NCBI RefSeq assembly: GCF_000025845.1
Contig: NC_014014.1
Location: 248,001 to 312,000, forward strand
DNA: 64,000 nucleotides
Direction: 5' to 3'
Origin: Mycoplasma crocodyli MP145
GTDB taxonomy: Bacteria > Bacillota_I > Bacilli_A > Mycoplasmatales > Metamycoplasmataceae
Shown here in pieces: positions 3,321 to 60,703 of the stretch. Position numbers and translations under genes: made by a program. The first letter of the stretch is position 1. Each line of letters starts with the position of its first letter. The notes below the pieces were generated by a model. The model was not told where the DNA came from and did no database searches. It saw only the letters and a program-made list of their open reading frames with translations.

Positions 3321-3327
3321 AATTTTA

Positions 3328-28808: not shown

Positions 28809-30281
28809 ATGAATAACAATACAACACCTATATTATCATTAATTAAAAAATTCATGAAAGACAACAAAAAGAAATCGCTTAATCAAGAGGAAGTTTTTGC
28901 CTTTCTAGATTCGATTAATGTTTTTGTTGACGAAGATGATGCTGATGAACTTCTTGAAGAGTTAATTTCAAAAAAAATAATAAAAGATGAAGTTGATGCT
29001 GGTGATGAAGATAAAGTTACAAACGATGACTTTGATGATATTCCAGATTCAATTAAGAAAAAAATTAAAAACATAAATCTTGATGATGAAGATTTAGATG
29101 CACCAACTAACTTAGAAGATGACCTTTTCGATGATGAAGATGATTTAGATCTAATTGATGGCGAAATGGAAGATTTCGATGTTGAAGAGTTAATGAATCC
29201 TGATAATTTAAAACTAGAATCTGAGGAATCGGATGAAAAAGAAGATGATACTGATGAAGCGGCTGCAGATGATGAAGAATATCAACTTGATGAAATTGAT
29301 GATTTAGATCTTCATTCGCTTGACTTACAAAGATTTGCTGATGAAGAAGTATTACTTGAGGATACTCAAATTGCTTCGGGAAAAAGTTTAACAAATAAAC
29401 TTACTGAAACTAATGATATTGTAAAATGGTACATGAGATGAATTGGTAAATATGGAGAACTATTAAAACCGGACGAAGAAAGAAGATTAGCAAAATTAAT
29501 GGAAAAAGGTGGTTTCAGAGGTAAAAGAGCTAGAGATAAGCTTATTATGAGAAACCTTCGTTTGGTTATAAATAATGCTAAAAAATACAAAAATAGAGGT
29601 CTTACTTTTATTGATTTAATTTCAGAAGGAAATGCTGGTATTTTAAAAGCTGTGCAAAAATATAATGTTGAAAAAGGTTTTAAATTTTCAACATATGCAA
29701 CATGATGAATAAGACAAGCAATTACAAGAGCCGTTGCTGATCAAGCAAGAACAATTAGAGTTCCAGTTCACATGGTAGAAACAATAAATAAAATTACGAA
29801 AATCGAAAGAGAATTACAACAAGAATTAGGACACGAACCAACTGATGCTCAAATTGCAAATCGATTTGGTAATGAATATACAGAGGAAAAAGTTAGATAC
29901 ATTAGAAAAATTAACATTGATCCTATTTCATTAGATAAACAAATTGGTAAAGAAAATGATTCATCATTTAGTGATTTTGTTAAAGATGACAGTGTTATGA
30001 CCCCTGTTGATTTTGCATCGCAAGAACAACTTAGTGAATTGCTTTTGGAATTAATTAATAAGTCATTAGAAAGAGATGAAAGAGAATTAATTTGCAAACG
30101 TTTTGGAGTTGGAGTAGATAGTGAAGGTAACAAATATCGTGTTCATTCACTTGATGAATTAGCTAAAGAACGTGGTGGAGTTTCCAAAGAAAGAGTTAGA
30201 CAAATAGAAAATAAAATCTTAAGAAAACTAAAAAATTCTTCTAAAAACGGAAGACATTTAAGAGATTTTATTAAGAATTAA
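28809..30281 (+). CDS. rpoD: RNA polymerase primary sigma factor
   Basis: A 490-residue sigma-70. An N-terminal part of about 180 residues is strongly acidic (many D/E runs). Region 1.2 follows from about 195. Region 2 carries MRNLRLVINNAKKYKNRGL, EGNAGILKAVQKY and FKFSTYATWWIRQAI (-10 recognition). Region 3 has VPVHMVETINKI. Region 4 ends with VHSLDELAKERGGVSKERVRQIE, the -35 binding helix-turn-helix. The dnaG-rpoD order is the classic macromolecular synthesis operon. Confidence 0.96.
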
Positions 30282-31058
30282 ATGACTATAAAAACTGTTG
30301 TTGATTTTCTATTTTCTAAATATCCATTAAGCACAAAAGAACCATGAGATCCAAGCGGGTTTAGTGTCAAATTTAACCAGTCTAAAAAACTTACTGGTGT
30401 AATTTTAGCTATTGATTTAACCCAAAAAGTTTTAGAAGAAGCTATTAAGAATAATTGCAATTTAATTATTACTCACCACCCTTTTAAGTTTGAAAAAACT
30501 TGAGATGATGAGGATTTAAAAGCACCTTATAAACGTGATATATTTAACAAATTAAAGCATTATAAAATTAGTGTAATTGCATTTCATACCAATTATGATT
30601 ATGCACTTGAAGGTACATCATTTCAAATTGCAAAACAACTAAATTTACAAAACTATGTAGTTTTTCAAGAGAATGGCTATGATTGTAAAATTAAATATAA
30701 CACATCAGTAAATAATATGATAAATTTAATAAAAGATAAATTAAATTTGGAAGCATTTCGAACTAATATTCCTACGGCACAACTTGATACGAAAATTAGT
30801 AAGATAGCTATTTTATCTGGTGCAGGTTATATTTCTGAGGTTAATTTATTTTCTAAAAAAGGATATGAATTAATAATTACATCTGATATTAAATGAAGTG
30901 ATTGGATAGTATACGATCAAATAAAAGCACCTATTCTAGATATTCCTCACCTTGATGAAGAAGTATTTTGTTATGATATATTTCAACAATTGAAAAGTAA
31001 ATTTAATCTAGAAAATTTAATTATTGTAAAACACAAAACACCATACAAAAATATATAA
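30282..31058 (+). CDS. Nif3-like dinuclear metal-centre protein (DUF34)
   Basis: A 258-residue protein of the NIF3/YqfO family. Candidate metal ligands are visible: LIITHHPFKF near residue 63, IAFHTNYD near 103, and HLDEE near 227, giving the His/Asp/Glu set of the family. The start is MTIKTVVDFLFSKYPL with an EPWDPSGF motif close to the family's E-x2-A-x2-W-D-x2-G. The ATG follows the rpoD stop with no gap, so it is translationally coupled. In Firmicutes the same neighbourhood contains rpoD-trmK-nif3; trmK is absent here. The biochemical role is unsettled despite an automatic label of GTP cyclohydrolase-like protein. Confidence 0.88.
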
Positions 31059-31088: not shown

Positions 31089-31958
31089 TTAGTTAACTTC
31101 GATTTCAGTTCTCTTTTTTGTTTTTTGATAAACCTTTCATTTTTGTCTAGCACTTTGTGCTCTTCTGTAATTGATTGAACATAAAGAAGATAAATTTAAA
31201 ATTTCCATAAGTATCATATTTGTAAATACATCAGCAAAAATATCATGTCTAGCTGTAACAAATTTATTAAAGAAATAAACTGAACCATATGATAATACAA
31301 TATCAGCTATTTTCTTAAATTGTTCAGCTGGAGCACTTGTAACAATAATAACTTTAATATCTTTGTTTTTGGCAAAATCGCTAATAAATTTAAATTCAAG
31401 TGAATTAGATTTATTAGTATAAACAATAACAACATCCCCTGACTTTGCATTTGCTACTATTGATAAAAGGTTATTAAAATTTGTAACTAAGTTAACTGTT
31501 AATCCAACATTTGATAATTCTGCAGACATACCAGTAGCCACCGAACTTTTTGATCCGCTTCCAAAAAGGATTATTCTATTTGAATTTAGGATTAATTTTG
31601 CTATTTCAGTAACTTTATCCAAATTATCACTATTTATTGAATCGTTTAATTTTTGTGTGTAATTGTCTAGTATTTTACCGGTTTGATCGGTTAGACTTAA
31701 ATGTTCATTCTGCTTCGAAATTTTAAATTCTTTCATTCTTCCGTTAAAGTATTTTGAAAAATCTTTATATGTATCAAATGATATTTTTTTAACAAATCTA
31801 GAAATAGTAGAAGTTGAAACATCGGCATTTTTTGCCAACTCAACTATTGTATCTGTAAATGTATCACCCTTATATTCATCAAAATATTTTATCAATTGTT
31901 TTTCTCCCTGAGTTAGTGGGATTTCTTTTGTTTTAAGTTTGTAATCATAATTCATCAT
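31089..31958 (-). CDS. RpiR family transcriptional regulator (second copy)
   Basis: A 289-residue regulator with an N-terminal helix-turn-helix (DTIVELAKNADVSTSTISRFVKKISFDTYKDF, about 38-70). A SIS domain follows (IILFGSGSKSSVATGMSAELSNVGLTV, from about 130; DVVIVYTNKSNS). The C-terminus extends through one TGA-Trp codon and ends KKRTEIEVN. It is a distant paralogue of the protein at 16514, sharing architecture but little sequence. It stands alone, divergent from the giant lipoprotein gene, so the 330-bp gap between them may carry its operator. Either this or the other copy could control murQ-nagA-nagB. Confidence 0.85.
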
Positions 31959-32291: not shown

Positions 32292-35200
32292 ATGAAAAGA
32301 AAAAATCTAGCTTTATCACTTTTATTGTTAGGGACTCTAACCTCATCTGCAATTTTTGTAGCTTCATGCGGTAATTCAAAAGCAATTAAAGGAGACGATC
32401 CCAAAGTTGATACAGATGATAAAAACAAAAAAGATTTTGGAAGCCTTGTGTTACCAGAATCTAACACATCGAAAATAGATTATTCAAAAGTTAACAATTC
32501 AGAAGTGCCAGGACTTAGTGAAGTTAAAACTATTCCTGATTTTAGAAATACTTCAACAAATTTAATTAGAGCAAATCAAAAAATTAATTATGTTGCACTT
32601 GGTGATTCGATAAGCGCTGGTTTTGATGGTTCTTTAGATGCTGACTATCCAGGACATAAATCAAGTGATGGCAAAATAAGTGGTCTTTCCTTTCCCGCTT
32701 TTCTAGCTAGAGCTTTAGATCAAGATAATAGAGTTGGACAATTTAATAATTATGCAGTTAGTGGAGCTACTTTAATTGATTGAATAACACTTTTAGATTT
32801 TCAAAGTACTGATAGAAAAACAATTAGTCATGACTATTTAGTTAGTGTTTTTGGCAATGATTATTTAAATAAAGCAAAAGAAATAAAAGAAAATGTAAAA
32901 AATTCAAACTTAATCACCATTAGTCTTGGTGGTAATGATTTTATTCATGAGTTTATTGCTAGTTTAAGAAAAAACAATATTTTTAATGAATTGATTGATA
33001 TGCAATCAAAAGATTTTGCTCTAGGTCCTATTATAACTAAAGCAAAAGATATTTTAGACGATACTATAAAAGTTATGTCGTCTAGAATGATTGATTTTTC
33101 ACTTCAAATTAAACAACTAGCACCAAATGCAAACATTAATTTTGTTTCATATCCTCTTCCGTTCTTAAAACTAAAAAATTTAATTGATTCATCAACTAAA
33201 TCACTTAGCAAGCAATTGAATTTTTCTCTCAGTGAATTTATTTTAGGTCAAATAAACAACACAATAAAAATAGTTGCTCATAGAACAAATACAAATTTTA
33301 TTCAAGCTTATAATTCTAAATTTTGAGATGAAAATAAAAATGAACTAGCTTCTGTATTCTTTGATATCCATCCAAATACAAACGGATACAAAAAAATGGC
33401 TCTTGATGTTTATCTTAAGATTACAAACAAGTATCTTGATATTAAAGATTTTAAAGCACTTGGCAATTATGATTTCGATTTCGATTTTATTAAAACTGAT
33501 GCATTAAATGCGCAATATCAAATAGAAGTAGCAGACTATAAAAATACAATCAATAAAGTTTTTGGTTCAAGTTCACAAGCTTATATTAAACATGAAAGCT
33601 ATGCAGAATCACTAGTTAAATCGATTAGATCAACAAGTAATTATGGAAAGAGAATAGCACACCTTGCCACTACTTATCGTGGAATGGTTGATAATTTTCT
33701 TGAATTTGGATTTGAAAGTAAAATTTATTTAGATTTAGATCCAAACCAAGTTCTTAAAAATTTCTTATACAAAGACAATAAAAAACCTCTAAATGATTTT
33801 ATAGATTGATTTTTAGGAAGTGAATATCTTGATACAGTTCTTCAAAAAGTTCAAAACGATCTTGAAGAAAAATTCTCTAAAAATCCTAAATACGAAATAA
33901 CTGGTAAAGATATTTCTGCTTCATTCATGAATGCATTAGTAGGTAAAGAATCACTTTTTAAATTACTTAAGACCTTCCTAAATTCTAATTTTATAAATAA
34001 TTATGGGCAAGATTTTATCAAGACAATTAATATGCTTTTAGCAGGTCCTGCTGGTGATAAAATATACAATTTATTACTTGAAAATACGCCTAAATTAATA
34101 TTAGAAAATATTCCTAGTTTGAGTATTGATGAATCTTCAATTAAATCAAGTTTTATAAAAATATTACCAAAAACCAACTTATTTGATTTAATAAACAGCG
34201 TATTTGAGGCTCTTATTAATGAACGTATTAATTTTGCTAATGCAACAAATTTAGATCAAATAATTACTTTAATTTTTGAAAATCCTAAATCAAATATGGC
34301 TATAGACAAGTTTATTAAGTCAATCATCACTAATCCTGAAACTAAAAATTTTGTTTTACCAATAATTAAAAATTTCCTTTCTAAAGATCAATATAAATGA
34401 ATATTTGAAGGTATTAAGGATCTTGATAAATTACTCAATAATTCATTTGATTTATATTTAGATATTGATAAAAATATTCAAATAAGTTCACAATTTGTAT
34501 CAAGCTTAATTTCAAATATTACCGAATACGGTCTTGATACTAAAAAATGAAATATTTTTAAACCTATTCTTGCTTCATATACTCAAAAATGAGATTCTAA
34601 CCTTGAAGATAATATTGTAAATTTAATAAAAGCAATATCAAATTCTAAGTTAGTCCAAGAAAATAAAGATGATTTAAAAATAATTATTAAAAACTTTATA
34701 ACTTATCTTAAAAAAGAAAATAACATAGAAAAACTTATAGTTAAGTCTCTCAAAGATAATCAACAACTTATAAATTTATTTGGTGGTGAAGAAAGATTTG
34801 CTAGAGTACTCAACTTACTTTTAGTAGATACTGATTTTAATACTATTGTTGATGAAATAATTAATAAAGGAATTGAAAGTATTTCTGAATTTAAAGATAT
34901 TAAATCATTCAAAGACATACTTAAAATTGCATTTAATAAATTAGATTTAGATAAATTACATACATCTACTACTTCTTTAATTTCTAAACTCATTAAAAAT
35001 CCAGACATTAAAATTGTTTTTAAAAACATCCTTCTTGATTACTTAGCTAAAAATGGTTTTGATACTAACAATCAAGCAAACATTGATTTTATGGATGATT
35101 TAACAAACAATATTGATCAATTATTTGTATATTTTGAAATTAATAAAGACGTCGTAGATTTTGCTTTTAACAAACTAAAAGAAATTCAAAAATCAACAGA

Positions 35201-38200
35201 TATAGCTCAAGGACTTAAAGACTTTCCTGGTCAATTAGTTCAAATTATTGATAAAAAAGTTAATCCAGATCCAATTGCTTTTGTTAAAAAAGTACTTGAT
35301 TATTCAACTTTTAAAAATAAAAAACAAGGTTTTGCAAACCTTTTAAAAGTTGTATATAACATAGCAAAAACAAGCATTAATTTTGAAACCATTTTAACTG
35401 CTGAAAGCACATTAAAATGAGTCGATCCTTCTGAAATAAACGTATTATTAAGCGAACTATTTGCTAAGGAAGATTTTACAAAAATAGTTAATGAAACAAT
35501 TGATTTGTTGATTTTGGATCAAAATTGAGTATCAACATTTAAGTCAACAAATGATTTAATTAATCACATTTTTAAATCAAATGAATTTAAGAATAAAATA
35601 AATTCTAACTTAGAAAATATTGTTAAATTTACCTTAGATAAGATTCCAAATAATTTAAATAAAACAATTACAAAAGTGATTAAGAATACATTAAAGTCAT
35701 TTGACATTGATCTAAATGCAGAATTAACAAATGAACTAACCAACAAAATTTTGATTTCATTAGTTAATGGATTAAAGAAAAATAATCAATATGACTCTAT
35801 TTATTTATCAATTGTTCAAAGTATTTTGCAAGCAAATAATAGTAATGAATTTAGTTCAAAACTTCAAGAGTTACTATTACCCAAAGTTCAATTAAGTTTA
35901 GTTTCGATTCTAAATTCATTAGTTAATAATTTAGATTCGACCAATGAAAGTGCATTAAAATCAGTAATTAATAAAGTTATTACAGGAATTTTGGTAGATA
36001 AAAATGTTGAAAAAATAATTGGATTTATTGATCTAAATAAGTTGTTAAGTAAGTATGGAATTACAGATACAACAAATCTTAAAAATGATATTAAAGCATT
36101 ACTTGTTTCACCTGAATTTAAAACTAAATTAGATGCATTAATTGATACTTTCTTTAAAAATATAGCTAATTTTAAAGGTAAAGAAAATGATAATTTATTC
36201 TTACAATCTATATTTAGAAATGATGATTTAAATACAAAATTTAAAGAACTTTCTAAGCATTTAATTGAACAAATTATTGACAAGAATTCAATAAAAACAC
36301 TAGTTCAAAAATCATTCGATCATGTGTCTAAAAATGAACTTCAATGATTATTTGTTGGTTCTACTATGCCTTCTTCATTAGTGGAAGATATCATTACTTC
36401 TATTAAAAAAACAAACTTACATACAACATATGTAGATAGTATTTTTGATACACTAAAAATAATTGATTTTACTAAACAAACACTGAGTTCAATATTTACT
36501 AATTCACTTGTGGGAGTGTTAAATAAGGAAAATATAACTGTTCCTTTTATTACATCGATATTAAGATCAAACACTATTAAAACTAATCCACAATTACTGT
36601 CTACACTAATTAAAAATGTAATTAACAAACTTAATACAGATAGCACATTTTCATCAAAAGTCTTATCCATTATTCCAGCAACAACAAAAGTGGAAATTAA
36701 CAAATATGCAAGTGATGAAGAGTTATCAGGCTTAATAAAAGTCATTTTAAGTAATGAAGATTTAAAAGTAATTATTACAAGTACATTAGATAGTATTTCT
36801 AAAGATACTGAATCGTTAGAAGCAATAAAAACATATGATTCTTTATTAAATTATTTGTTTAAGAAAATTGACTTTACTGCAAATAAAGATAAAATAAAAT
36901 CAATATTAAATACACTTGGTTCTAACACAACCATTCAAGGAATTGTTAAAAAAGTTTTAGATAATTTATTAAAAGAAAAATTAAATATCTCAAATCAAAA
37001 CTCACAAAAATTAACAAAAAGTATATCAACTAAAATAATAGATTTACTTAAGTCACTTAATATTTATGATCAATCAATTGATACTTTAATTACTGAATTA
37101 AGTAAAGTATCAACATCAACTTCAACCAATGCCTTAGAAACACTTAAAACATTGCCAAGTGTATTAATTAAAGTGGTAACGGACGAAATAAACAAAGATC
37201 CTATTAAGTTTATTCAAACTATATTAAAGAATGAAATTGTTTCTCAAAACAAAGATTCTATAAAAGAAATTTTGGGATCTACTCTTGATTATTTAGCAAC
37301 TTATAATAAATTAAGTGATCTAACCAATTCTATATCAACAGCTATAGTAAAAGGAAAAAGTGCTGAATATCTTGAAGTTTCAGAAGTATCAATATTATTA
37401 ACTAACTTACTAAAGAATGAAAAATTCAGGGCTTTTGCCAAAAGTGCAATTAATAGTTTTATAGATAAAACAGACTTAACTACAAAGACTTATTCAAATA
37501 CGAATGAATTTATTTTAGATATTCTTAAATCAATTGATTTCTCTTCAAATAAAGAGAATTTAAGAGAAATTATAAATGTTGTTTTACAACCGAATCTATT
37601 TCCAAAAACAGTTAATAAAACAGTAAATAAAATTTTAGTTGATCAAAAAATATTGCAATCAACTGATACTAAATTAAGTGAAAAATTAACTAATAAAATA
37701 TTTGAATCAATTAATTCATATATTAATAAAGTTAATCTTTTTGATAGTTTATTTATTGCCCTTACAGAGTCGTTAAAAACTATAACATCACTTGACCAAC
37801 TAGGTTCTAATTTTGTTAATGAATTAAGCAAAGTAGTCGATTTTAAAGATTATAAATTCTTTAAAGAATTAATGAATTTATCAATTCTTCAAGAAAATAA
37901 AGTTGAAGTTAAAACGTTTGTTAATAAATTATTTGAATGATTTAAAACAAATGAACTTGATAAAAATCTAGATAGTTTATTACCTACAACTACAACAATT
38001 GGATTAAGTAAAGAGCAATTAAAAACCTTAGTTAAAAAAGTAATAACTAATGAAAATACAAAATCATTAATTGAACATGTAGTTGAAGAATTAGCAACAA
38101 ATTGAAATTCTAAATATGCTAATGGAAACTCATATGAACGTTTAATTCAATTAATGTTTAAAGAAGTTACATTTGTAAACAAGGTCCAACCTTCTATAAA

Positions 38201-41200
38201 GTCGTTGGTAACAAGTTTATTAAAAGATACTGATTTTAAATCGGGTGCTTCAGGAATAATAGTTAAATTTTTAGAAACTAAAGAGCTTGAACTAATTTTT
38301 AAAGGCATTACTAATAAACAAGATTTTGCAACTAATCTTTTATCAATAGTTGATATTCTAGATAAGCATTTAGATTTAATTGAAGTACTTAGTTCAGGAT
38401 TAATTGAAAGTGTAGCAAAAAGCGGATTCACCTTATCTATTCCAACAATCATTTCTAAAGTCGGCGAAAAAATAACTGCTAAATTTAGTGGATCAGACAA
38501 AGAAACAAAGATATTTGAATTTGTAAAAGATATTCTTAAGTCTGATTTAATTTCAAAAAATGGAAATGAAATAAAAACCGTTATTAATAATGCTATTGAA
38601 GCAATTGGTAAAAATGATGAATTCTTAACAAAAATTTATGATGGTTTATCAGATGCGCAAAAAACATCATTAAACAAATTTGCAAGTAAAGAAGATATTG
38701 TTTTAGTTCTTAAAACAATTGCAAATAATACTCATTTCAAGGCTCTGATTAGTAAATTAACTGATTTAATTTCAACACATCATGCGGATTTATCTTCAGC
38801 AACAGATATTAATGATTTAATTAAGAGATTAATTAAACATATTGATCCAATTTCTTTCAAAACTGAATTAAAAGGTCTTGTAAAAGATTTATTAACAAGC
38901 ACTGAAATTAAAAAGTCTCTAAAAAATGTTTTAAATAAAACACTAACAACTTATGGAGTTGTTGTAACTGATACAAATGTTATAAAAGTTGTTGATACCA
39001 TTATTGATAATGCAGAATCATTCATAAATTCTCTAGATATAATAGATTCTTCAATTGATTTAATTTTTGATGATTTATCAAAATTAAGCACAGGTACAAA
39101 ATTAGTTGATGAAATTGCAAAAATAGGACCAAAATTAAATGAACTATTTAATACCAAAATTACTAATAATTTAGGTGCTATAGTTAAAAAAGCATTAGAG
39201 TTACTCAATACACAAGAACACAAAACTGGTTTGACTACAATTGTTACTAGCGTTTATAAAAAAATGTCAAGCGATGGTTCTTTATCTAAGATATTAGAAA
39301 ATGAAATCAAAAAACTTGATCCTAATTCAATATTATTTAAATATGTTAATGTTGAAGATTTACCGGCTTTAATTGATGTTGTTCTAAAAAACAAAAATAT
39401 CGAAGCAATGCTAGAACCTACTATTACTAATTTATTAAATAATCAAGAATGAGTAGCAAAGTTAGACACCAAAGATACTTACCAAATAATCTTATCCATA
39501 GTTAAATCAGGAAATATATTTGTTTCAAACAAAATTAATGCAATTAAATTAGTTGAAGAATTATTAGCTTCAACTGAATTACATAAATCATTAAGTAAAA
39601 TTATAAATAGTTTAATTACTAAATACAATTTAAATATTAAATTTACTAATTTAGATGGTCTTATTACATCGTTAGCAAGCGATATTGCAACATTTCTTAG
39701 AGATAATGATATATTAGCACCTATTATTGACAAAATGGCTGCAAATACTACAACTGCTAATAAATTAATGGATTTATTTGTTGGAATTGATCAAATTCTT
39801 AAAGATAAATTTACAAAAGTACCATTAGAAACATTTAAAAAAGTTTTAAGTATTAAAACAATTGATTCAAATAAAGAAGACCTTAAATTACTATTAAAAG
39901 GTTTAGCAATTGAAATTCTTAAAGATACCAAAATTGCAGATGATTTATCAACAGGATTAATTTCAAAAATATTACCTGCAAAATATGCTATTTCAATTGA
40001 TGAAATTAAATCACTTTTAGCTGCTTTAGCTAAGTCAGAAAATTACAATAAAATAGCATCAGCATTTATAGATACATTAATAGATAATAAGGAAGAATAT
40101 AAATCAGCCGTTGATTTTAATCAAGTTCTTGTAAAAATATTATCAAATGATTCATTTATTAATAACATTAAAACATTAGTAGCACCATTATTTAATGATT
40201 TAATGAGTGATGAAAAATCAAGAATGTTATTTGCAAAGATAATCACTGAAGAGTTAAAAACATTTGAAAATAATTGATTATTAAATGGACTTACTAAACC
40301 AAACGACCTTATAAGTGCAATATTGCAATCTTCAAATATTATTAATTCTAAGTTAAATATATCTACTCATTTAATTGATTCTTTAGCAAAAGAAGCAAAG
40401 AAAAATTTAACAAAAATTGATTTTAAAATTATTGCTTCTGAAACATTTAATTTATTATCACAAGATTTAAGTACAAATTGAGAAACAAAAATCCTTGAAA
40501 TATTTAAAGAATTATCAAAATCGCAATTGTTAAGTGTAACCAATAAAGAAGATTTAAAAATATTAATTAAAAATGTTTTTGCACATCTTAATGTAGATAG
40601 TAAATTATCGAATTTAGTATATTCATCTATTCCTCAAGATAGCAAAAAATTACTCAATGATTATGTTGATGAAACACAAACAAAATCATTATTAGATAAA
40701 ATATTCAAGAATGAAAAATTAATTGAAATCGTTAATGATGCAATTGATTATTTAGTAAACGAACCAGATAAAATCGCTAGTGCAAAAACACTTTTAGATG
40801 TTATTAAAGTCATAATAACACCAGAAGATAAAACCAAAAAATTAATCACTAATTTAAATTCTATTGTTACAAGTGTTCTTAACGAACCAGAAACAAAAAC
40901 ACTTGTTAAGAATGCTTTATTGAAATTTATTAAGTTTGCTGGTATGGATGAAAACGATGCAGATGTTAAAACATTTACCGAAAAAATTTCTGATGGATTA
41001 GGGCAACTATTGTTAAATTTAGGTGTTGTTGATACAATGATAAATAGCCTTGTTTCAACAATTAAAACAGAACCAAATCTAACAACATTAGTTTCAAAAT
41101 TCCAAAGCATTTTAATTAAATCAATAGAAGTTCAAAATTACAAATTCGTTGCTAAATTATTAAAAGAACCATTGGTTGCTAATAATAAAACTATTATTGA

Positions 41201-42560
41201 AAAATTCCTATTAAAAGTGATGGATACACTTGTAGCAAATGATGATAAATTAAAGAAAACTGTTTATGAATTAGGCTTTACTTCTCTATTTGCATTTAAA
41301 GAAGAATTAGATTCAACTAAGATAGACAGCATGCTTGTATTCATCTTGAAATCAAAACACTTTAAAGAATTAATTAGAAGTTTTATTGAAGAATTTATTG
41401 GAAACAATCAAAAGTATTATGATTTAAATACTTGACCAGAAGCTATTAATGTTTTCTTAAATAGTGAAAAATCAGCTAATGTAAAATCACAATTAAAAGC
41501 ATTCCTAAACGAATCTCTTTCTGATACAAATGGTACTGTTGCACAGGGGTTTGCGGAAATTTTCTATAGTATTTTAAAATCAAGTGGATTTAATGTTCAA
41601 TCAAGTAATAAAGAATTATTACAAAGAGTGATTACTAAATTATTTAAATCCTTAGCTACAAGACCAGAATTTGATAATGTTATTGATAAAATATATGAAA
41701 ATATAAAAGCAATCGACTTTAAAAATGCAACAAAAGAGGATGCAACTACGAAGTTAATGTCTGCTATCAGTGATGGAATATTTAGCATTATCAAAAATAA
41801 CACAGGTCAAATATCGCTATATAATATTTTACAAAAGAAAGACATGATCAATACCTTAATTGAAGGTCTTGGAAAAGATGATTATATCGACTTTGTTAAC
41901 TTATTATTTGAAACATCTGATTATGACAAAAAAACAGGTGTGTATGGCATGATAGACGACATATTAAAACCTAAAACAAATGCTTCAGGGCCAGGATTTA
42001 AATTTGATGTTAATATCTTCAATGTTGTTTCTGATACAAGAAGTTTTATGAAAAACTTTTGAAGACCATTTTATGATGATTTATTTACTGAAATAGCAAA
42101 AGACAATAATACTTCTTACCTTAAAAATACCAATAATTATTATAAAGAATACAAGTCATACAAAGCAATGTATAGACTGTCAACTATGATGCTTTGAGCT
42201 CTTAAAGAACAAGTTAGCGGAACGCTATTCTGAAATGCTACTGATTTATCAGTTGAGGGAATAATAAATAACTCTATGTATGATGCATATACAGAAATGT
42301 ATGCTAAACATAGTTCATCATTATCATCTCAATCTAGTTCAGATTTATTGAAAGTTGGAGTTAAATACAGTAAATATAACACAGAATTTATAGTTGGTAA
42401 CAGAAGTAACTGAACTTCAAATAGCAACTATGATAATAATCAAGTATTAGCATATGTTTATTATTGAAAAACCAATACAACAGATAGACATGATAGATCA
42501 AAAACTAAGGAACAAGTTCTTTATGAATCGCTTAAAAAAGGATACTTAGGTTCAAAATAA
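32292..42560 (+). CDS. Giant surface lipoprotein with N-terminal SGNH/GDSL hydrolase domain and repeats
   Basis: A single uninterrupted 3,422-codon frame (code 4). The signal peptide ends in a lipobox (FVASC, Cys26). Residues about 98-385 form an SGNH/GDSL hydrolase: block I YVALGDSISAGF (Ser106), block III SLGGNDF (Asn215) and block V FDIHPNTNGY (Asp358, His360) are all present, so it is probably an active esterase or lipase. From about 546 to about 3,180 the protein consists of about twelve degenerate helical repeats of about 219 residues. The last 170 residues are Trp/Tyr-rich and differ. Secretion and lipid anchoring are predicted from sequence; the substrate is unknown. Large GDSL lipoproteins exist in other mycoplasmas, but the repeat array is the notable part here. 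A terminator follows. Confidence 0.9.
33927..41846 (+). repeat. About twelve degenerate 219-residue coding repeats
   Basis: The same submotif, K/N-x-D-x-[IL]-K-x-[IL]-[IL] followed about 40 residues later by an [ED]-[IV]-x-x-[LI]-L-x-x-[IL]-[LF] segment, recurs at residues of about 789, 1010, 1215, 1430, 1653, 1869, 2088, 2306, 2526, 2750 and 2962. The spacings I counted are mostly 212-224 residues. Within each unit a segment like D-x-[SL]-I-x-x-[LI]-x-x-x-L-S-x-[LV] lies just before the submotif. The copies are diverged in sequence but keep length and hydrophobic pattern. Confidence 0.7.
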
Positions 42561-42566: not shown

Positions 42567-42596
42567 TAAGAAAGAGGGGAAACCTTCTTTTTTTAT
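42567..42596 (+). terminator. Terminator after the giant lipoprotein gene
   Basis: An AAGAAAGAGG / CCTTCTTTTT hairpin with a GGAAA-type loop (one G-T pair), then a long T-run. Confidence 0.7.
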
Positions 42597-42712
42597 TTTT
42601 CATTGTTTTTGCTATTTAAATGAAAATTTATGTTTAAAAATAATATAATTATTAAAAATTAAATAAATAACCAAAAATAAGGGATTTTAAAATTGTATTG
42701 AAAGGATGAATT

Positions 42713-45700
42713 ATGAAATTAAAAAAAGGAATGCTTTTAGCAAGTTCTACATTTTTATTATCTAGTGCGTTTGTATTTGCTACATCAGTTTCTGTGCATG
42801 AAGAAGCTCGTTATAAAACGCACATCACAGAGTTATCAGAGTATCCATATCAACAAAGATATCTTATTAAAAATTTGATAACAACCAGCTCACAATTTGA
42901 TGCTAATGTAAATTACATAAATACTCCTTTAATTTTTAAAACAAAAAAAGTTAATTACCCCCATTCTGATACTTCAAACCAATTCAAAAATTTTGTTTCT
43001 TGTTTTGATAGTTCAGTACCAAATGGCGAAAAAACACAAAATTTATCAATTAATGAATTGAACTCATTTGAAGTTAACTGTGATAAAAATAAAAAGGTAA
43101 AATGATTTGATTTTGTTTATAGATCTCTTGATTCATCAACATTCACATTAGAAGCTTTAGAATTTGATTTTTATATTTATGATAAATCAAATACTTCAAC
43201 CCCAATATTAATTAGTGATTTTGTAACAAAGATTGAATTGACAAATGATACTGGAATTTCATGAGAAATCCCACGTGCTAATTATAAAATTATTGAAAGT
43301 AGTGAAGAAAGTAATAAATATAAGATAATTTTTAATAATAAAAATATTACTAATAATTATAATAAACTTAAAACAATAAAAATTGCTTTAGATATTAGTT
43401 CAAATAAAAATTTCGAACAACTTACTCTTATGATAAATAAAGCATATATTTCCGATTATTCTTTTGCTAAGCTAATGATAATTGAAAGTCAAAAATTGTT
43501 AAATAATTTATCTTCTTATTTATCAAATCGGATTTATCCTCCATGAATTAAAAATCAAGTAACAACTCTTATTTCTTCGATAACTGATCCATATATTAAT
43601 CTTTCTCTCGAAAAATATCAACATGCAATTGATGACAAAAAATCACTAATTTATGGAGTTGATGCTAACGAATTGAATCTTGCTGTTAATGAACTAAGAA
43701 ACACTCAAAAATTTAAGGATATGTTTAAAACTTATAAAGAACTGTTGTTAATAAAAGTTAAAGAACTAGAAGATAAAATAAACAACCCTTTAAATAATGT
43801 ATCTTCCTTATATAAAGCATCTATTGAACAATTTATTAGCAATCTAAAAATTGAAATAAATTCAAAAAATGATAGCCAAATAATAGGCACTTATTATGAT
43901 AATACAAATGCTAAAATAGATACTTATTTAGCAAACTATCAATCATATTTTATGGATGGATTAGCTTTAATTCAAAATTATAAAACAAATCATGCTTTAA
44001 AATTGGATGATGACAAAAAAACTGAATTTATCAGTTATCTAGATGATAAAACAAATGAAATAAATAACTTTAACGAACAACAAAAAATAGAATTTAGTTT
44101 GGCAAAGTTTAATGATGATTTTAAAAATGAACTTGCACTAAAATTCGATTCATACAAATTAGATCAAATAGTAATTGATGAAATTAATAAGATTAAAACT
44201 GATGAAAATTTTTATACCAAGGAATCTTTTGATCAAAAAGTCTTAGAATTAAATCAAATTGCAAATTCATTTAGTGTTGAACACATATATAACACCCTGC
44301 AAAAAGAAGTTAAACTAAATGAAATTGCATGAATTAAGGAAAGTTTAATTAGTAATTTTACATTTTGTAAAGAAGAACGAGAAAAGGTTATTAATTTTGA
44401 CATTGTTAATTCACATTATTTTATTCAAAAGTTTAATAGTGGTAAAGCAAGTTTTATTGCTTATTCTTCATTTCTTGATAATCAAGCAAATATAACAAGG
44501 CAAAGAACAGAAGAATATATTAACTATATATCCGAATGAAAAAACAATAATTTAATTACAAATAAAAATGAAATGTTAAAAAGTATAGAAACCCTTGTTA
44601 ATGAAGAAAAATATAAAGATTATATGCTTGAATCTAAGAGATTAGAACTTGAATCAACAATCAATGAGTTTAAAAATAGCTTAATTTTAAAGGATGAAAA
44701 TCTAATAAAAGCAAATGAATATAATTCATTTGTATCAAATGATTTATCTAACTGAAATAATATTATCAGTCAATTCACAAATAAAAAATGATTGCTTGAA
44801 ACAATAGAAACTGAATTCAATCTTGATTATTCGTTCTATCATGAAAAAACAGTTGGAATATATAAAAAATATTTAGAAACTTTAAAAAACAACATTCTTA
44901 ATCAAACAGATTGAACAACTGCTCAAAAAGTTTCTAAGAACCAAGATTTAGAAACTAATAAAACTAAACTAGAAACCAATAAAACATGATTAAATAATTA
45001 CATTGAGCAAATACAGAATGAATCATATTTAGAATATGAAGAAGAAAGTTCTCAAAATTTTTTAAGTTGATTAACTAATTTTAAAGAAGCCCTACCTGCT
45101 AACATCAATAAATTGACAAGAGATAATAAATGTAATGAGATTAACAATAGTAAAAGTGAAATTATTACTAACTTTAAATGATTAAATGATTATATTACTG
45201 AATTACTTGATAAAAACTATGATATATATCTAAGTGAAAAAGTTGAATTGTTTAAAGAATATTTAAATAATCTTAAAGCGAACTTATTATCAACACCTAA
45301 GATTTTAAGGGTTGAAAAAGAACTTAAGAAATTTAATATTAATGAACAAAAAGAAAAACTTATTACAAATAAAAATTATTTAATCGAATTAATTAATAGC
45401 GATATTTTAGCTAATTATGAAAAATATACATTAGAAAGCGAAGAAAAGTTAAAAGCTAACCTTAATAACATTAAGAGAGAATTAATTAAAGATATTAATA
45501 CATCAGTTAAAAATAATTATATTTCTAGAATTTCATTATACAAAGGAAAAATGGTCTCGAATGTTAATGATTTACTTGAATATATTAATTTACATAAAAA
45601 TATTCAACCCATTTATTTAAATCCTGAATATGATATATTTGTAAATCTTCTTGATGATACAAAAAGAAAGGTTAATATATCTCCTTTTGTCCTTAGAACA

Positions 45701-47983
45701 ACAGCAGATGAATATAAAAGAACAATAATAACTTCAAAATCAACTCTTAAGACATTTCACCAAGATATAAAGGATAAAATGTATTCTGATAAAAATCATG
45801 TTGATAAAAATAGAGATATCTATTTACCACAACCTCTTGCAGAATACATAAGTAGTTTAGAAGACTTAACTTCTTTATTCAACATTAATTATACTCCGGA
45901 TATCTTTTTTGTTAGTCAATACAACCAAAAGGTTTCTGAGTTAAATGATCTAAAGAAAATTTTGGTATCATACAAACAAGATATTTTATCTCATATTCAA
46001 AAAGAAAACCTTATTGATGAAGAATTTTATCCAATTGATTCAATAACTACATATAGACTTGAACTAAGGATTCTTAGTGATGAAATAACACCAAAAAAAG
46101 AAACGTTAATTAATGAAGAAAAATATAACAAGTATAAAGAAAATATTAGTGCAAAAAAACATTCTCTTAAAACTTATAATAATCTTTTAGATGAAAAACT
46201 AACTAATGTATCTCATATTAATGGTTTAATTTATGATATTGATTCTGTTAACAAATTTGTTGAAGAAATAAAGAAACTAAGAACTGAAATAAAAGTTGGT
46301 TTCATAAAAAAAACATTGTATGATCAAAAAGTAGTTGAGATTTCAAAGATTCCTGAATTGCTTGTTACAAATAAAGCAAGTTATGATAAATTAATTAATG
46401 AGGCACTTTCAATAAGTTCTAGACTATATGTTCCTACATCATTTAACGCATATCTTATTGCTCTTAGAAATCTTCAAGCTAAATACAATAGTAAAACTGA
46501 TATAACAACAAATGAATTTAAGGTTATTAAAGAAGAATTAAACGAAAATGTTTATTCAAAACTTATTTCATATAAATCATTACTAATCAAAGACTTAAAT
46601 CTATATAGTCTTGATCCAAACAAAAATAATTATACAATCGAATCAAGCAAAGAATTGCTTGAAGAAGTATCTAAAATAAATGCTCTTATTTCAAAAGAAG
46701 ATTATGAAGTATCTTTAACGAATTATGAAGAATTTAAAAACAAATTACTTCTATTTAAAAATAAGTTAGTAACAAATAAATTCGAATTACTTGAAATAAT
46801 CAAGAAACTTGATGAATTCATCGACAAAGGAAAAAATCTATATAAGCCTGAAAGTGTAGAAAAATTTAGTTCCGCTATTAAAGAAATTAAATCAAAAGTC
46901 GTTTTATATGATGAAAAAATATTATATACAAGCATAGCTATTAATTTTAAAGAACAAATTGATAAAGCAAGTGCCTTGCTATTCAATTTTAAGGAGCAAT
47001 TGCTAAAAGATTTAAATACAAATCTATCAAATGATTATAACTATGCTACGCCAGGTAGTGTATCAATAGTAAATAAAGATTTAAATGATATTAAAGACAA
47101 TATTATAACTAGATCAGTAATAGAAATTGATGATTATATCGAATTAGATAAAAACATCAAAAAATCATTAAAAAAACTTATTACCTATAAAAGTTTACTT
47201 ATTAATAAAGTTTCTCTAATAAAAAATAAGTTACTCAATGATATTGCTGATTTTGAAATAAAACCTCTTTGAGATATTGATTTACAACTTTATAGTCAAA
47301 AATCAATAGATACCTTAGTAAATAAAATTAATACTCTTCTAAAAGACTATGAAAAAGAAGCATTAATAATTATTGATTCAACTTATAAAAATGAAAGTGT
47401 CAAACTTGACCAACTCATAAAAGAACTTTACAGCAATAAAGATGACTTAAACCAAACAATAGATAAAGCAAAAGATATTGATTTGAATCAATATTCCCCA
47501 GAGTCATATAGTGAATTCATTTTAAAAATTAATACTATTTCAGACTTGATAAATGCCGATTCAAAAATTACACACAATAAACATAGGTCTTATATTGAAC
47601 AAATAAACAACATAAACGATCTTTTAATATCATATAAGAAAAAAACATTGACCGATATTGAAACGTTAATATTCGAGGTTGCAAATGATAGAACCAAATA
47701 TAAAAATAAAGCTTACGAAAAATTCGATAAAAATATTAATGATTTAAAATCAAAGGTTTCAAACAATAATAATGTCCTAAAAAATGATTATTACCAATAC
47801 AATGATCGAATAAAAACTATCAAGTCTTACTTAAATAACTACTATTTCAATAAGAATCTTACATCGCATGAATTTGCAATGTGAGCTCTTGTTGTTGGTG
47901 GAAGTATGGGATTGTTTATGTTTTTAATCTTATTAATCTTCATATTTAAGAGTTTACTATTCAAAACCAAAGATAAATGATAA
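42713..47983 (+). CDS. Large repeat-containing surface protein 1 (signal, FIVAR-like repeats, C-terminal anchor)
   Basis: A 1,756-residue protein. The N-terminal signal (MKLKKGMLLASSTFLLSS) is followed by a beta-rich domain of about 230 residues with alternating hydrophobic strands (TIKIALDISSNKNFEQLTLMI), resembling a jelly-roll or carbohydrate-binding fold. The rest is a long helical stretch of repeats of about 80 residues (E-x-Y-x-x-E-S...F...I..L, then a YK-x-L-[LI]-x-[KD]-[IL] end), similar in style to FIVAR repeats of Gram-positive adhesins. Near the C-terminus comes a module shared with the next two genes (TKYKNKAYEKFDKNINDLKS ... YYFNKN), one membrane helix (ALVVGGSMGLFMFLILLIFI) and a basic tail. 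Promoter TATAAT at 42644; GAAAGGA before the ATG. The exact function is unknown; adhesion or a surface stalk is likely. Confidence 0.75.
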
Positions 47984-48202: not shown

Positions 48203-51200
48203 ATGAATAAAAAAATAATTAAATCTAAAATATTTGCAGGAGGAGCACTGGCAACCTTATCTATGGCCACATTGGCTATAGTTCCTTCTGTAACATATGA
48301 ATATGAAAAGAATGAAAACAATATAAAATACACTTATTTAATAAATTCAATGAACCATATGAAATTTATCAATAAGAACAATACTCTTAAAATTAAAAGG
48401 TATTCTTATCATCTAAACAATGACCCAACACCGGATTTTTCTAAACTTAAGATAACTAATGATATTTTTTTTCCACGTGATGTCTGACGATCATTAGATG
48501 AAGTTAATAAAGCCTTTTTCAGATTTGATAATACTGATTATTTAAAAAATGATAAGTATTGTTTGTCCCACACATATGATGAACCGGTTGACATCAGATT
48601 TTTTTCTATGATTTTATCAACAAATTCAGTTAGAAAATTAAAGATAAGGTTATATGATAATTCTAATAATTTGCTTGACGAAGTAAATGATTTGTCTTCA
48701 AAAGATTTTTCAAACCCTGGAACTGGTTTCTTAAAACTTATTTTACCTTATGGTAAGTATCTAGCTTCTAAAAAAGAATCTAATTATCAAAATTATTTTT
48801 CATATGCTGGTAAGTTTATTGGAAATCCTGCATATATAAATCATTTTTATCCAACAAAAATTAAAAATGTAAAAAAAATAGAAATCATATTCAATGAAGT
48901 AAATATTCCTAATTGATCATCACGTCTTCAACCCTTATCTAATTCAGTGTATCTTCAACATATTGGTACATATAATGATAATTGTCAAATGAAAAATATA
49001 GACTTATTAGATGAATTGTCTAAAAAAGCTGATACTTTTTACACAAAACAGTCGCTTATTGATTATAGAAAAAAAATAGAATTTTTAAAAAATTCAGAAA
49101 TGGTTAAAATTAATAATTTTTTAAATGATTTTAGTTTTAGTGATATATCTTTCCAAAAACAAAGAGCGGCTTACACGTTTAAAAATTACTTTAGTTGAGA
49201 ACCAAATGAATTGGTAAATGAGCAAAACCATATAAAATCTGAGTTATCTAACATTCTTGTTTATATTAAAGATGAATTACTAAACTATTTAAATAATCAT
49301 AGAATTGATAATGAAAATGATTATACAAAAACTTCTTATGATACCTTTATAAGTAAAAAAACAAATCTTACAACCGAAATTAATAATATTAATAATGAAA
49401 ATTTTAATGAAACGATAAAGAATGAAAAAATAATAGTTTTTGAAAATTACATAAAAGAATTAGTATCTAATAAGAATGATTTTATCAAAAATCAATTACC
49501 TATTTTTGAATCTAAAAAGAATGATTTGAATTCTTTTCCTAACTCTGTAAAAGAAGAATGAAACACTTATGTTAATAATCTTAGTTCTAGAGTAAACACT
49601 ATGTTATCAATGTCAAGAAATCAACATTCAGAGTTAATTACTGAAGCTAACGATTATTTAATTAAACTTAAAAAACAAAACAAATCAAATAAGGATATTT
49701 TAATTGCTTTAATTGAGGAAAAAAAGAAAATAACCGATGAAAAACACACCAAAAAATCTGTTGAAGATTATTTAGCAAAATTGGAAACTATCCTTACAGA
49801 AATTAATAAAATTTCTATTATTGAACCTGACACTCAATTCAATAGTTTTAACGATCAAATTAAAAATGCTACTAATTTACTAATATCATATAAAGTTGAT
49901 ATAACTAACCTTACTATTTGACCAGATTCTATTATTAAGAATTATTATGACAAAGAAGTAGTGGCTTTGTTTGAAAAGTTGTTAAACGATATTAAAAGCC
50001 AATATGATGCTATTGATTTACCTACAAAAGAAAATTATCAAAATGTGAAAAATCAAATAGAAACAGGTAAAAATAATTTATTAGAAAATAGTTATAAAAA
50101 AATGCTTGATAAATTAATGTTTGCTTATGATACAAAAAAACCTGTGGGAATTATTAATATACTTGGTTCTAATCCTGAAGATAGCGGAATTAATTCTGAA
50201 TTATATAATTCTAAAAAGAATGAAATTCAAATAATTAAAAGTAAGTTAGATACATTAGATGTGATTGATGAAGCATTTTATTTAGAAAAGAAAATAATTG
50301 TTGATTCATGAATTAAAGATAATGTAAAAATATATAAAGATCAAATAATATCTAATATAGAAGATATTAAAAAATCACCTTTATTTGAATTCATGTACTT
50401 CGAGGAAAGAATAAAACTTTTAAATGAAATAAGTGATGAATTTAATTCAAAAGATATTACTGATTTCAAAACAATTAAAAAAGCAAATTATGATGAATTT
50501 ATTGTCAAAAGTAATGATTGAAAAAATAGGTTATCTAACAAAACAAATCAGCAATATCTATTAGACATTATTAAAAAAATAGAGGAAAATCAATTTGTAG
50601 GAAAAAACCAAGATTTGGTAAATACTCTAAAAACAAAAATCAATGAAATTAAAACCACTAAGGTTAATAGTGATAAAATTACCGATACGAAAACACAAGA
50701 AATAAAAAATGAAATAGATTTAGTTCTTTCAACTTTATTATCAAATAAAGAAATTTTAACAAAATTACTTGATGAATGAAAAGTTAATGAACAATTTTAT
50801 ACTATTGAAACATGGTTAGATTTTAATACAACATTAGCAGTGATAGAAAATGAAACAAATTCAAACCAAACAATTTCAGAAGATGAATTAGATTTATATA
50901 AATCTAGAATTACAAATGCTGCTATATCATTGGTAAAAAATAAAGATAATCTATTAGATTTAATTGATTCTAAGTTGATTATTCCTTCAACATCTTATAT
51001 ACCAAATTCACATGCTGTATTTATTCAAAAAATTAAAGAGTTAAAACTTGCTGTTGTAGGTTCACCTAACATATCAAATACTCAATATAAATCATTTAAT
51101 GATCAAATTAAAAACTTAGAAAAAAAACTTATCGGTTATAAAGATCAATTAATTTTATTGATTAATGATAAGAAAATAAAGAAGATTACAGTTTTCCCTA

Positions 51201-51907
51201 TTCCCTCTCAAAATGAATATAATAGAGAAGTCACTAAACTATTTGACCAAATAAACACTGAAAAATCAATTAATTTGACAAAATATAATGATTACAAAAA
51301 AAAGATAGATGAACTTGACAATTTATTACGTTCATATAGAGATAGATTATTGAATGAACTTGAATTGCTCGAACAAATAAGCGATACTTATTACGAAGAT
51401 AAATCATATTCTGCTTTTAGCAATGAAATAAAAACTCAAAAAAACCTAATTACTATCATTACCAATATTGGTGAGGATGAATATATTACATATTCAACAA
51501 ATTTAAATGCTGCAAAACTACTACTTGTTTCCTATAAGTCATTATTAATTAAAGAAATTGAAAAAGCAGAATCTACAAATCCTGATAATTATGTAGCAAG
51601 TTCGTTTAAAACTCTTACTGATTATTTAAAGGATAAAAGACAAGTATATAAAAGTGTTGAAAATATTAATCTTGAAGAATTCAATAGAGTCAAAGATGAA
51701 ATTGATAATTTGATAAACAATCTTCAAACATTTAAATTAGGTCTTGTTAAATATATTAATGATAAAAAAGTTGATGCTGTATTAGTTTATTATAGTAAAA
51801 CTTCTAAAGATAAATATATAAAAATGCTTGATAACGAATTATTAAGATTAGAATTACCTTCACTTAAAATAGATAAAACAGAATATGATATATATGTTAA
51901 AAAATAA
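48203..51907 (+). CDS. Large repeat-containing surface protein 2, N-terminal part ended by a frameshift
   Basis: 1,234 codons from the signal peptide (MNKKIIKSKIFAGGALATLS) to an in-frame TAA. It has a jelly-roll-like region (VRKLKIRLYDNSNNLLDEV ... VKKIEIIFNEVNI) up to about residue 250, then helical repeats of about 80 residues. From about residue 850 on it aligns with the paralogue at 53603 (for example YTPNSY/YIPNSH, IKELK, LLVSYK). The stop follows AAAAAA at 51899-51904. The reading frame that matches the paralogue continues in the -1 frame, so this product lacks the membrane anchor. It would be released or degraded unless the frame is restored. Confidence 0.75.
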
Positions 51908-53602: not shown

Positions 53603-56600
53603 ATGACTAAAAAAATTAATAGAAAATTTTTGACTTTGTTATGTTCTTCTATATTTTTAGCTTCTTCTATTACTGTAGCAACTTCAGGTACAATAAAAGA
53701 CCCATTTATAAAAAGAGATTTTATTCAATACCTTGATACAAAACACAGAAATGTTACAGGAAAGAAAGGGTATTATTATATAAAATCATATAAAGAATAT
53801 TATTGAAAATATACAGCTTTATATGAGGAAGTATCTTCATTTGATGATGAAACTTTCACAGAAGATCTTTCTAGCCATTATACAACAATATATCAAAGAA
53901 TTGAAGGTGGTCTAATTTGGAATAAGGACTATCTATTAAAAAATTCATTTAATTGAGATCTCGATTTTCTAAAATATTTCTCTACAGTTAAAGAGCAATG
54001 AGATGCTTTTACTAATGATAAAAAACAAAAAATAAATAATCAACGTTTTATTGCTAATGCTGCCTTAAAAACTTATGAAAGTGAGATTAATGATTTTAAA
54101 ACAAATTTATTGTTAAGTAACAAAACATACAAGCAAACTTTACTAAATTATATCGATGAAATAAATAAAATAGATGATACATTTTATACTAGTACTTCTG
54201 TTAATGATTTCAACAGGGATATAGTTGATTTATTGAATAAAATAAATAAAACAGATTTAATTTATGTGTATGAATATAATGTTTTAAACAATCAAATACA
54301 TGCAGTCAAAAATAAACTAGAGACTTACAAAAAAACAATTGAAAATATTTTTTTAGATGTATTCCCATACCAAAAGATATATTTTGATGAAACTTCTTTT
54401 GATCAATTTCAAGTTGTTATTAAAGGTTTAAAAGATAAATATACATCTCTTGTGAAACCTTCTAAAACAGATACGATAACATTAACTGCTGAAATATTAC
54501 AAACTACACAAGAATTGGAAAAACATAGTTATAAAATACTTATGTCTAATTACATAAAAGCCTATGATAAAAACACTTTACTAGGTGTTATTGATTTAAT
54601 AAATTTTAATCTTGAAGAAAAAGGTGTACATCCCGATAATTACAATCAAAATTTAAGCGAGATTAATGCTATATATAATGTTAATAATTCATCAGCTTCT
54701 TGTGATAAAAACACATATAACGAAAGAAAAGAACTAATAGATACTTGGGTTTTAAATAATCTTGTTTTTTATAAAGATAAAATATTAGCAAATATTAAAA
54801 TATTTAAAGAATCACCTGAATTATTAGAATATACGGTTTTAGAAACAAAAACTACTGTTTTAAACGAACTTAACAATTATCAATATATTGTAGAGACTAA
54901 AACTACTGACACATTTAGAAATTCAGACTATGCCGATTATGAAACTAAAATAAATGAATGAAAACAAAAAATATTAACAGTTACTAATCATGATTATTTA
55001 ATTAACTTGATAAAAAATACAAAAGACAAGGTTTATGCTAATGTTTCACCAGATAGAATTAATTCATTCATTGTTAAATTAGATAAGATAAATGAAGATA
55101 TATTAAAACATAATCTTAAAATTAATCATGACTTATGTAAAAAATACAAAACTCAAATAAAAGAATTTGATGATTTAATATTAAGCAATAAGGAAAAAAT
55201 TTATCAATTAATTTCTGAATGAAGTTTAAAAAGCAAATATTACACCATTCAATCATGAGTTGATTTTAGAGAGTTAATAACAAATATAAAAAATCAAATT
55301 AATCCTGATTCTTTTGTTGTTTCAGATGAATTGTTTGAACAATATAAAACACAAATAACGACTGCTTTAAATTCTTTGGTATCAAATAAATCTAAGCTAG
55401 ATGAAATAATTGAACAAAAACTTTCTATTCAATCGACAAAATATACTCCAAATTCTTATGATAATTATTTAGTCAAAATTAAAGAACTAAAAATTTCATT
55501 AATAGGTTCTACAAATATTACAACAGATCAATTATCAGCAATAGAAATTCAAATAGCAAAATATGAAAAACTACTTGTTGAATATAAAAAACAATTATTA
55601 ATTTTGATAGATAATAAGAAAAAGGCTGATATTAGTTTATATCCGGATTTTTCACAAGAAGAATATCTTAAAAAACTAGACTCGTTATTGACAAATATTA
55701 ATAATGAAGCAGAGATAGATTTAATTAAGTTTAATGAATATGATACTTTAATTAATAATGCTAAAGAATTATTAAAAACTTATAAAGAGTTTCTTTTAAT
55801 TGATGTATTAGAACTTGAAGCAATAGAAAAAAAATACTATTCTGAAGATTCGTTTAATCTCTTTTCTAATGATTTTAAAAATCAAAAGAATTTAATTGCT
55901 TTTGACTCATCAATAGATTTAACTAAATATCTAACATATAAAAATAATTTATCTAAAAGTAAAGAACTTTTAGTTTCATATAAAACATTATTAAACAAAG
56001 AAATAGAAAAAGTTGAACGTTTAGATAAAAATAACTACTGAGATGATTCATATAACAAATTAATAAACTATATAAATGAATTAAAGATCGAATATAATTC
56101 AATTGAAAATATTGAATTTATAAAATATAATGAACTTAAAATAAAAATTCATGATTTAATGGATAATCTTCAAGATCTTAAAATTGGTTTGAAAATATAT
56201 ATCAACACTAGAAAGAACGATGGTCAATTAATTTACTTCACAGAACAGTCTAAAGCTCAGTATCTTCAAAATCTTGATGTTCAATTATCATCAATAAATA
56301 ATTCACCAATTAATTTTGATCGGGGACAATATAATAAGTACAAAGAATATATTGATAATCTCTCAACATCTCTTCAATCTAACAAGGAATGACTTATTAA
56401 ACAAATTGCTATAGCAACAAATAATGTTGAGGAATTTCAAGTTTCTATATTGCCTGAAAAATACAAAAAGTTTTTAACGGATGTAAAAGCACTTAAAAAA
56501 GAAGTGGAAGATCAATTACAAATATCTATTAAACAAGCAAAGATATATGATGATAATTTAAATATCTTAGTAAGCTTAGTATGTGATTTAAAAAATTCCT

Positions 56601-57727
56601 TATTAAGTAAAATAGATTTTTATCTTAATGAAAAAGACTATCAAATATATCTTGGTTCAAGTGTATCTTTATTTAAAGATAAAATTAAGTTAAAAAAAAC
56701 TTTTATCCAAAATAAAGATAAAATTTCATTTATTGAACACAACAAAATTATTGAGGAGATAGACATTTTAGAAATTTCATCATTGAAAACATTAAAAACC
56801 GATTTATTAATGAAAATTGAGAATCTAAATAAAAATAAAAACTTCCTTGAATATACTCCGCAATCAGAAAGTCAATATCATAAAGCAATTGATACTCAAC
56901 TTGAAATTCTTAATAATCCAAATTCGTTAGTTAATCTAGATGTTTATACATCAATGAAAAATGAGTTAGAAAATTCTATTGAAAAAATGCTTATTAAAAA
57001 TATTGATGATTATGCTCTTCAATTAGAAAAACAAATGGATCTTTCTAAAGATGATTATACTAGCGAATCATGAGAAAAATTTAATACTGAACTAAAAAAG
57101 AAAAATGATGAGTATTCATTCTTTACATCGTTAGACCAAATTAATTATCTAAGGTTGTCTAATGAATTAAATGGACTAAGTAAATTATTAATCACATATA
57201 AAGAGGTTCTTGAAAAAGAATTGATAAATAATCAAAAAGAGTATTCTTCTAATAAAGGCAAATATAGAAGTTCTGCATGCAAAAAATACGATAAATACTT
57301 TGAAAAATTAAAACATGAAGTCAATAACAAAATCATTATAAACAAAAATGATTACAATTCATATAAAGAAAAACTTAGTTCAACATCAAACTTATTAAAT
57401 AATTATTATGTCAACAATAAAATGAGCTTTATGGAATATCTTGTATGGATTTTACTTATTGCAACAACAGCTGGAATAGGAGTATTAGTTTTCTTTATTA
57501 AAAAATCAATAAAGAAAAGAAAAAATGTTATATATCCCAATAATCAAGATGCATCATTGAATTTAGACCTGAGCAACCAACTACCCAACGAAACTTATCC
57601 AAATTACTTAGAAGCTTTACCAGAACCAGAACTAAACAATTACACTAATGTACAACTTGAACCATTAGAAACACATAATACTAATATAAAACCTAATTCA
57701 AACAAACCTAAGCGTCACAAGAAATAA
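53603..57727 (+). CDS. Large repeat-containing surface protein 3 (intact paralogue)
   Basis: A 1,374-residue protein with signal segment (KFLTLLCSSIFLASSITVA) and no obvious beta domain, so the helical repeats begin almost at once. Repeats of about 80 residues share the [YF]K-x-x-L-[LI] ending. Its last 800 residues are homologous to protein 2. The shared module GKYRSSACKKYDKYFEKLK ... LLNNYYVNNKM precedes the membrane helix (FMEYLVWILLIATTAGIGVLVFF). The cytoplasmic tail is basic and then rich in Asn, Leu, Pro and Glu (ALPEPELNN). The reading frame is intact where protein 2 is broken. Strong promoter; own terminator. An adhesion or stalk role is inferred only. Confidence 0.78.
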
Positions 57728-58746: not shown

Positions 58747-58803
58747 TTTTTTTCCTTTCACAGCATAGTAATATAATTTTACATAAATTAAAATTAAAAA
58801 ATA

Positions 58804-59590: not shown

Positions 59591-59592
59591 GA

Positions 59593-60699: not shown

Positions 60700-60703
60700 A
60701 TTA

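Follow-up and report, generated by a model that had tools for sequence, protein, structure and literature searches.

A giant SGNH lipoprotein of Mycoplasma crocodyli is a MilA-family protein with an array of twelve helical units

We analyzed a window of 64,000 nucleotides from the genome of Mycoplasma crocodyli MP145. At positions 32292 to 42560 of its forward strand the window contains a complete gene for a lipoprotein of 3,422 residues, in which an SGNH/GDSL hydrolase domain is followed first by a long array of helical units and then by a conserved C-terminal domain. This giant protein is real, and it belongs to the already described MilA family, which is carried by nearly every species of the genus. 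A preceding reading of the same DNA, made without database searches (the sequence-only reading), had recognized the uninterrupted frame of 10.3 kb, the lipobox, the hydrolase with four likely catalytic residues and about 2,600 residues of helical repeats, and the present analysis bears out all of these. It had also held that such an architecture would be unusual. This view has to be given up, because the architecture is found throughout the genus and includes the characterized M. bovis lipase MilA.

The gene and its place in the MilA family

Translation with table 4 gives 3,422 codons without interruption, including 20 TGA codons that are read as Trp. The gene makes up 1.10% of the 934,379 bp genome, in line with the earlier estimate of more than 1%. 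A chance origin of this frame is excluded because its SGNH part is encoded in 60/60 genomes of the same genus and because an intrinsic terminator-like hairpin with a T run (42568 to 42593, plus strand; one found versus 0.1 expected) lies 3' of the stop codon. Directly upstream are the genes for rpoD (sigma-70) and a NIF3 family protein (28809 to 31058, plus strand). These are conserved neighbors: 11 other fetched loci have both of them close to the homologue. A Pfam profile search of the M. crocodyli genome found the giant gene as the sole match to PF13472, and an NCBIfam search of the giant protein returned no family. A search for tandem DNA repeats and phase-variable tracts within the gene found just two short imperfect repeats.

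The N-terminus (32292 to 32369, plus strand) reads directly from the translation as a lipoprotein signal peptide with a basic start, a hydrophobic core and the end IFVAS-C. The lipobox VAS-C26, identified by motif reading and not by a dedicated predictor, places the putative lipidated cysteine at Cys26.

The relation to MilA could be examined directly since one of the homologues (locus L069 in genome G026) is MilA itself. It has 2,670 residues and a gene of 8,013 bp, which agrees with the 2,670 residues and 8,012 bp published for MBOVPG45_0710 of M. bovis PG45 (PMC4045577). In 2014 the M. crocodyli gene MCRO_0279 was included among the full or partial homologues of MilA (PMC4045577), and the giant protein is thus very probably already listed as a member of the family. 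The two proteins are colinear at both ends, with 26.6% identity over residues 76-920 and 22.2% over residues 2567-3419. They have in common an N-terminal membrane-targeting segment, an SGNH domain at about residues 90-390, the C-terminal domain and a long helical array whose units belong to one family; a single unit HMM detects 12 copies in the giant protein and 10 segments in MilA. They differ in length (2,670 versus 3,422 residues) and in the lipobox cysteine, which was not found in MilA but is present as Cys26 in the giant protein. Furthermore, arrays in the MilA lineage consist partly of blocks of about 315 residues, equivalent to 1.5 units, while the giant protein has units of about 215 residues.

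MilA is reported to have lipase activity, and its surface exposure was demonstrated by trypsin treatment (PMC9630594, PMC9051441, PMC4045577). It reportedly binds various lipids, heparin and ATP (PMC9630594, PMC9051441). No transposon mutants in MilA were recovered and antibodies against it inhibit or slow growth (PMC9630594, PMC9051441), so that it is apparently needed for growth of M. bovis. A second enzyme with measured lipase activity is P65 of M. hyopneumoniae, which has 31% identity to residues 90-395 of MilA (PMC4045577). P65 shares the related N-terminal SGNH lipase domain, but the literature describes it as a short surface lipoprotein without a giant array, and this description sets it apart. 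In the literature searched, which did not include the primary MilA paper, the anatomy of the units, the variation in length and the C-terminal domain are apparently undescribed so far.

Hydrolase, repeat array and C-terminal domain

The hydrolase domain occupies residues 100-371 (32589 to 33404, plus strand). Two Pfam profiles match it above their curated cut-offs and are nearly fully covered: PF00657 (Lipase_GDSL) at residues 100-371 with E=1e-13 and 52.4 bits (cut-off 23.6), and PF13472 (Lipase_GDSL_2) at residues 102-367 with E=8e-12 and 46.4 bits (cut-off 32.9). The residues proposed earlier as catalytic, Ser106, Asn215, Asp358 and His360, were chosen correctly; in 62 homologues they are invariant or nearly so, with identities of 1.00, 1.00, 0.97 and 1.00, and Gly158 reaches 0.89. 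The invariant residues of the SGNH blocks are kept in the giant protein, namely Ser for block I, Gly for block II, Asn for block III and Asp/His for block V. In the 62-sequence alignment conservation is highest in the SGNH region, followed by the C-terminus, and poor in the array.

An AlphaFold2 model of residues 28-1150, built with 41 sequences, has a mean pLDDT of 83. It contains a foldable SGNH core in which pLDDT is mostly above 90; over the whole SGNH region the values are mostly 82-97, with a few weaker loops. A Foldseek search of this model against the PDB gave GDSL esterases and lipases as top matches (8ik1, 7e16, 5mal and 4hyq), all with probability 1.00 and TMt values of 0.58-0.76; the best solved fold match is EstL5 (8ik1, TMt 0.76). 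The SGNH-domain profile also reaches GDSL proteins of the PDB by sequence. These enzymes, which comprise EstL5/Geobacillus GDSL esterases and a Streptomyces PLA1/lipase, share the SGNH fold but are stand-alone proteins of about 205-236 residues and have no array. Profile matches, conservation and modeling support the assignment of this domain as a putative SGNH hydrolase, in which the catalytic residues are complete and the three-layer fold of the family is predicted. A conserved and, according to alignment and model, mainly helical linker (residues 372-539; 33405 to 33908, plus strand) connects it to the array.

The array spans residues 540-3146 (33909 to 41729, plus strand). An iterated unit HMM tiles these approximately 2,607 residues with 12 helical units of about 215 residues each, a more orderly arrangement than the sequence-only reading had seen. 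Profile-profile self comparison brought out pronounced repeats that recur about every 215 residues. This method was needed because BLASTP self-comparison and autocorrelation of the single sequence yielded no clear repeats at the protein level; identity between units of the giant protein is only about 12-27%. Units that are three, or multiples of three, apart are more alike than other pairs (permutation test, p=0.0002), which indicates a higher order of about 650 residues. The same 3-unit periodicity occurs in several relatives and is absent from the protein with six units. We also considered that the number of units might always be a multiple of three. Within the long lineage 6, 12 and 15 are indeed frequent numbers; since 11, 13, 14 and 17 detected segments occur as well, the rule was rejected.

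Models of the array are all-helical with pLDDT mostly at 75-90. The pTM is 0.52-0.60 despite this locally good confidence, and for this reason the overall shape of the array is not established. Of the long surface rod envisaged by the sequence-only reading, the helical nature therefore stands and the rod shape does not. The model of the array plus C-terminus found no match at E≤0.001 among PDB structures and viral models; the fold of the array has a weak resemblance to HEAT/importin-type solenoids, none of it at E≤0.001, and lipovitellin matched the array by sequence at E=0.48 only. With the current Pfam, DUF445 is found neither in the giant protein (E≤0.1) nor in MilA (E≤10), so that the published assignment of multiple DUF445 copies to MilA was not reproduced, and we did not use this domain as a criterion for the family.

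The C-terminal domain (residues ~3160-3422; 41769 to 42557, plus strand) is separate from the array. Alignments show that it is conserved across the genus, with F3206, G3216, R3295, W3314 and G3369 as conserved positions, and other genera of the family yield weaker matches. It has no relative in the PDB that is detectable by sequence.

Variation of the array among relatives

In a scan of genome contigs, an alignment as the query found homologues; the single protein as the query found none. Full frames were read at loci from 54/60 genomes and range from 884 residues, where a contig end cuts the frame, to 4,129 residues. The usual homologue has 1,100-4,130 residues, a variable number of units and the C-terminal domain of the giant protein. 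In complete relatives about 5 to 17 unit segments are detected. Most long-array homologues carry a lipobox-like motif, which was not found in the MilA sub-lineage.

In some short relatives of 860-930 residues the SGNH domain is accompanied by a weak match to the C-terminal domain, and no unit is detected. The fact that they hold both ends without detected units suggests that the array expanded between two older ends. The array extends beyond the genus of M. crocodyli, since long SGNH proteins of Ureaplasma (loci L107, L117 and L120) carry 6-9 detected units; they have no match to the C-terminal domain. Mycoplasmoides fastidiosum has four tandem short SGNH genes (locus L118, 9758-19218) for proteins of 521-723 residues, in which no array unit is detected.

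The nearest relative is found in M. alligatoris A21JP2, with 56% identity over the N-terminal 430 residues. In this draft genome (locus L042, from about position 4473 downwards, minus strand) a single break near residue 1570 interrupts the homologous frame, and a different frame takes over from there up to the end of the contig; the cause is either a real lesion or an assembly error.

Proposed function and genomic surroundings

Mycoplasmas of this kind are unable to synthesize fatty acids, and how these are acquired from the host is understood only in part. A search for ketoacyl synthase in the M. crocodyli genome was negative (the control was positive in 14/14), and the genome encodes two DegV/FakB-type proteins and one PlsX. 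The use of external fatty acids via FakB and PlsX is established biochemistry. Fatty acids must therefore come from outside, and the cell can use them. With its occurrence throughout the genus, and with an M. bovis form that is apparently needed for growth and serves as a diagnostic antigen, the lipase family is a good candidate for this supply.

On the basis of its sequence and of the analogy with MilA, the giant protein is probably a surface lipase/esterase of the MilA family, which hydrolyzes host lipid esters and whose array holds or presents lipid, a host ligand or both. Lipoprotein biology and MilA suggest that it would be exported, held by a lipid anchor at Cys26 and displayed on the surface of the wall-less cell, its SGNH domain close to the membrane. 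By homology this domain would hydrolyze host-derived lipid esters, and the freed fatty acids would enter the cell and be used by way of DegV/FakB and PlsX. The array and the C-terminal domain would point away from the cell, bind lipid and possibly also glycosaminoglycan or the cell surface of the host, and thereby supply the lipase with substrate; that the array of the giant protein binds lipid is proposed here by analogy. Over evolutionary time units are gained or lost, and the length of the array changes accordingly. MilA is reportedly released to the supernatant and cleaved into parts of 226 and 50 kDa (PMC9630594), and SGNH domain and array of the giant protein may likewise be separated by processing. 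For work on array function, the unit boundaries and the conserved C-terminal domain provide definite limits for the expression of fragments.

The sequence-only reading had named host lipids or glycans as substrates. Lipids are plausible by homology with MilA and P65, while glycans are without direct support. An enzyme of the latter kind would be a carbohydrate O-acetylesterase that acts on O-acetylated sialic acid or mucin of the host, with the array as a spacer. Sialate O-acetylesterases and acetylxylan esterases are indeed among the Foldseek matches, and NagB-like, amidohydrolase and GKRP-like SIS genes lie 16-19 kb downstream. However, GDSL esterases and lipases rank first among the fold matches, the activity measured for MilA and P65 is on lipid-type esters, and a family that is present genus-wide does not track one glycan niche; we regard glycan esterase activity as quite improbable. 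We give equally little credence to the idea that the protein serves mainly in adhesion or as a surface spacer, with a secondary role for the hydrolase and with host matrix, for example heparin, as the ligand of the array. Such a role would fit the heparin binding of MilA, the large share of the array in the protein mass, the wide variation in unit number between species and the presence downstream of three more large helical proteins with signal-like N-termini. It is at odds with the SGNH domain being by far the best conserved part, with catalytic residues kept in essentially all homologues, and with short relatives that retain this domain and have no detected units; moreover, the giant protein contains two XBBXBX and zero XBBBXXBX heparin motifs.

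A stronger form of the surface lipase reading, which overlaps with it, would make the units a continuous hydrophobic groove or tube that is fed by the lipase and carries lipids or fatty acids from the membrane of the host to that of the mycoplasma. The lipase would sit on a superhelical solenoid with blocks of three units forming the lipid-collecting groove or conduit, and the number of units would set its reach. If true, the protein would work as a machine on the bacterial surface, cleaving lipids of the host and channeling what is released. The reported binding of various lipids by MilA is consistent with it, as is the 3-unit periodicity, which a superhelix could have. P116 (MPN_213) of M. 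pneumoniae, a surface protein able to extract lipids (PMC10023570), is a precedent for lipid acquisition at the mycoplasma surface; it is proposed as a parallel only, having no detected sequence relation, no hydrolase domain and another fold. In view of the low pTM and of the lack of a significant fold match to lipid carriers, with lipovitellin as a weak sequence match, we consider a conduit unlikely.

The surroundings of the gene contain further surface-protein candidates. Three more giant genes follow downstream at 42698-47983, 48203-51907 and 53603-57727 (plus strand) and encode proteins of 1,761, 1,234 and 1,374 residues. All three have signal-like N-termini and repeated segments that are helical in appearance; searches with Pfam and NCBIfam returned nothing for them, and none of the fetched loci of relatives contains a homologue. 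By eye they have some likeness to FIVAR-type repeat surface proteins. The 1,761- and 1,374-residue proteins finish with a hydrophobic segment and then a basic tail, an end that the 1,234-residue protein does not have. A gene for an RpiR-type regulator (31089-31958, minus strand) is located directly upstream of the giant gene on the opposite strand. Together with the NagB-like, amidohydrolase (NagA-like) and GKRP/MurQ-like SIS genes at 58862-61567 (minus strand), it possibly forms one amino-sugar regulon that is split by the surface-protein genes. The cluster of giant surface-protein genes is adjoined by a Ser/Thr protein kinase gene (57775-58761, minus strand; PF00069, E=3e-51).
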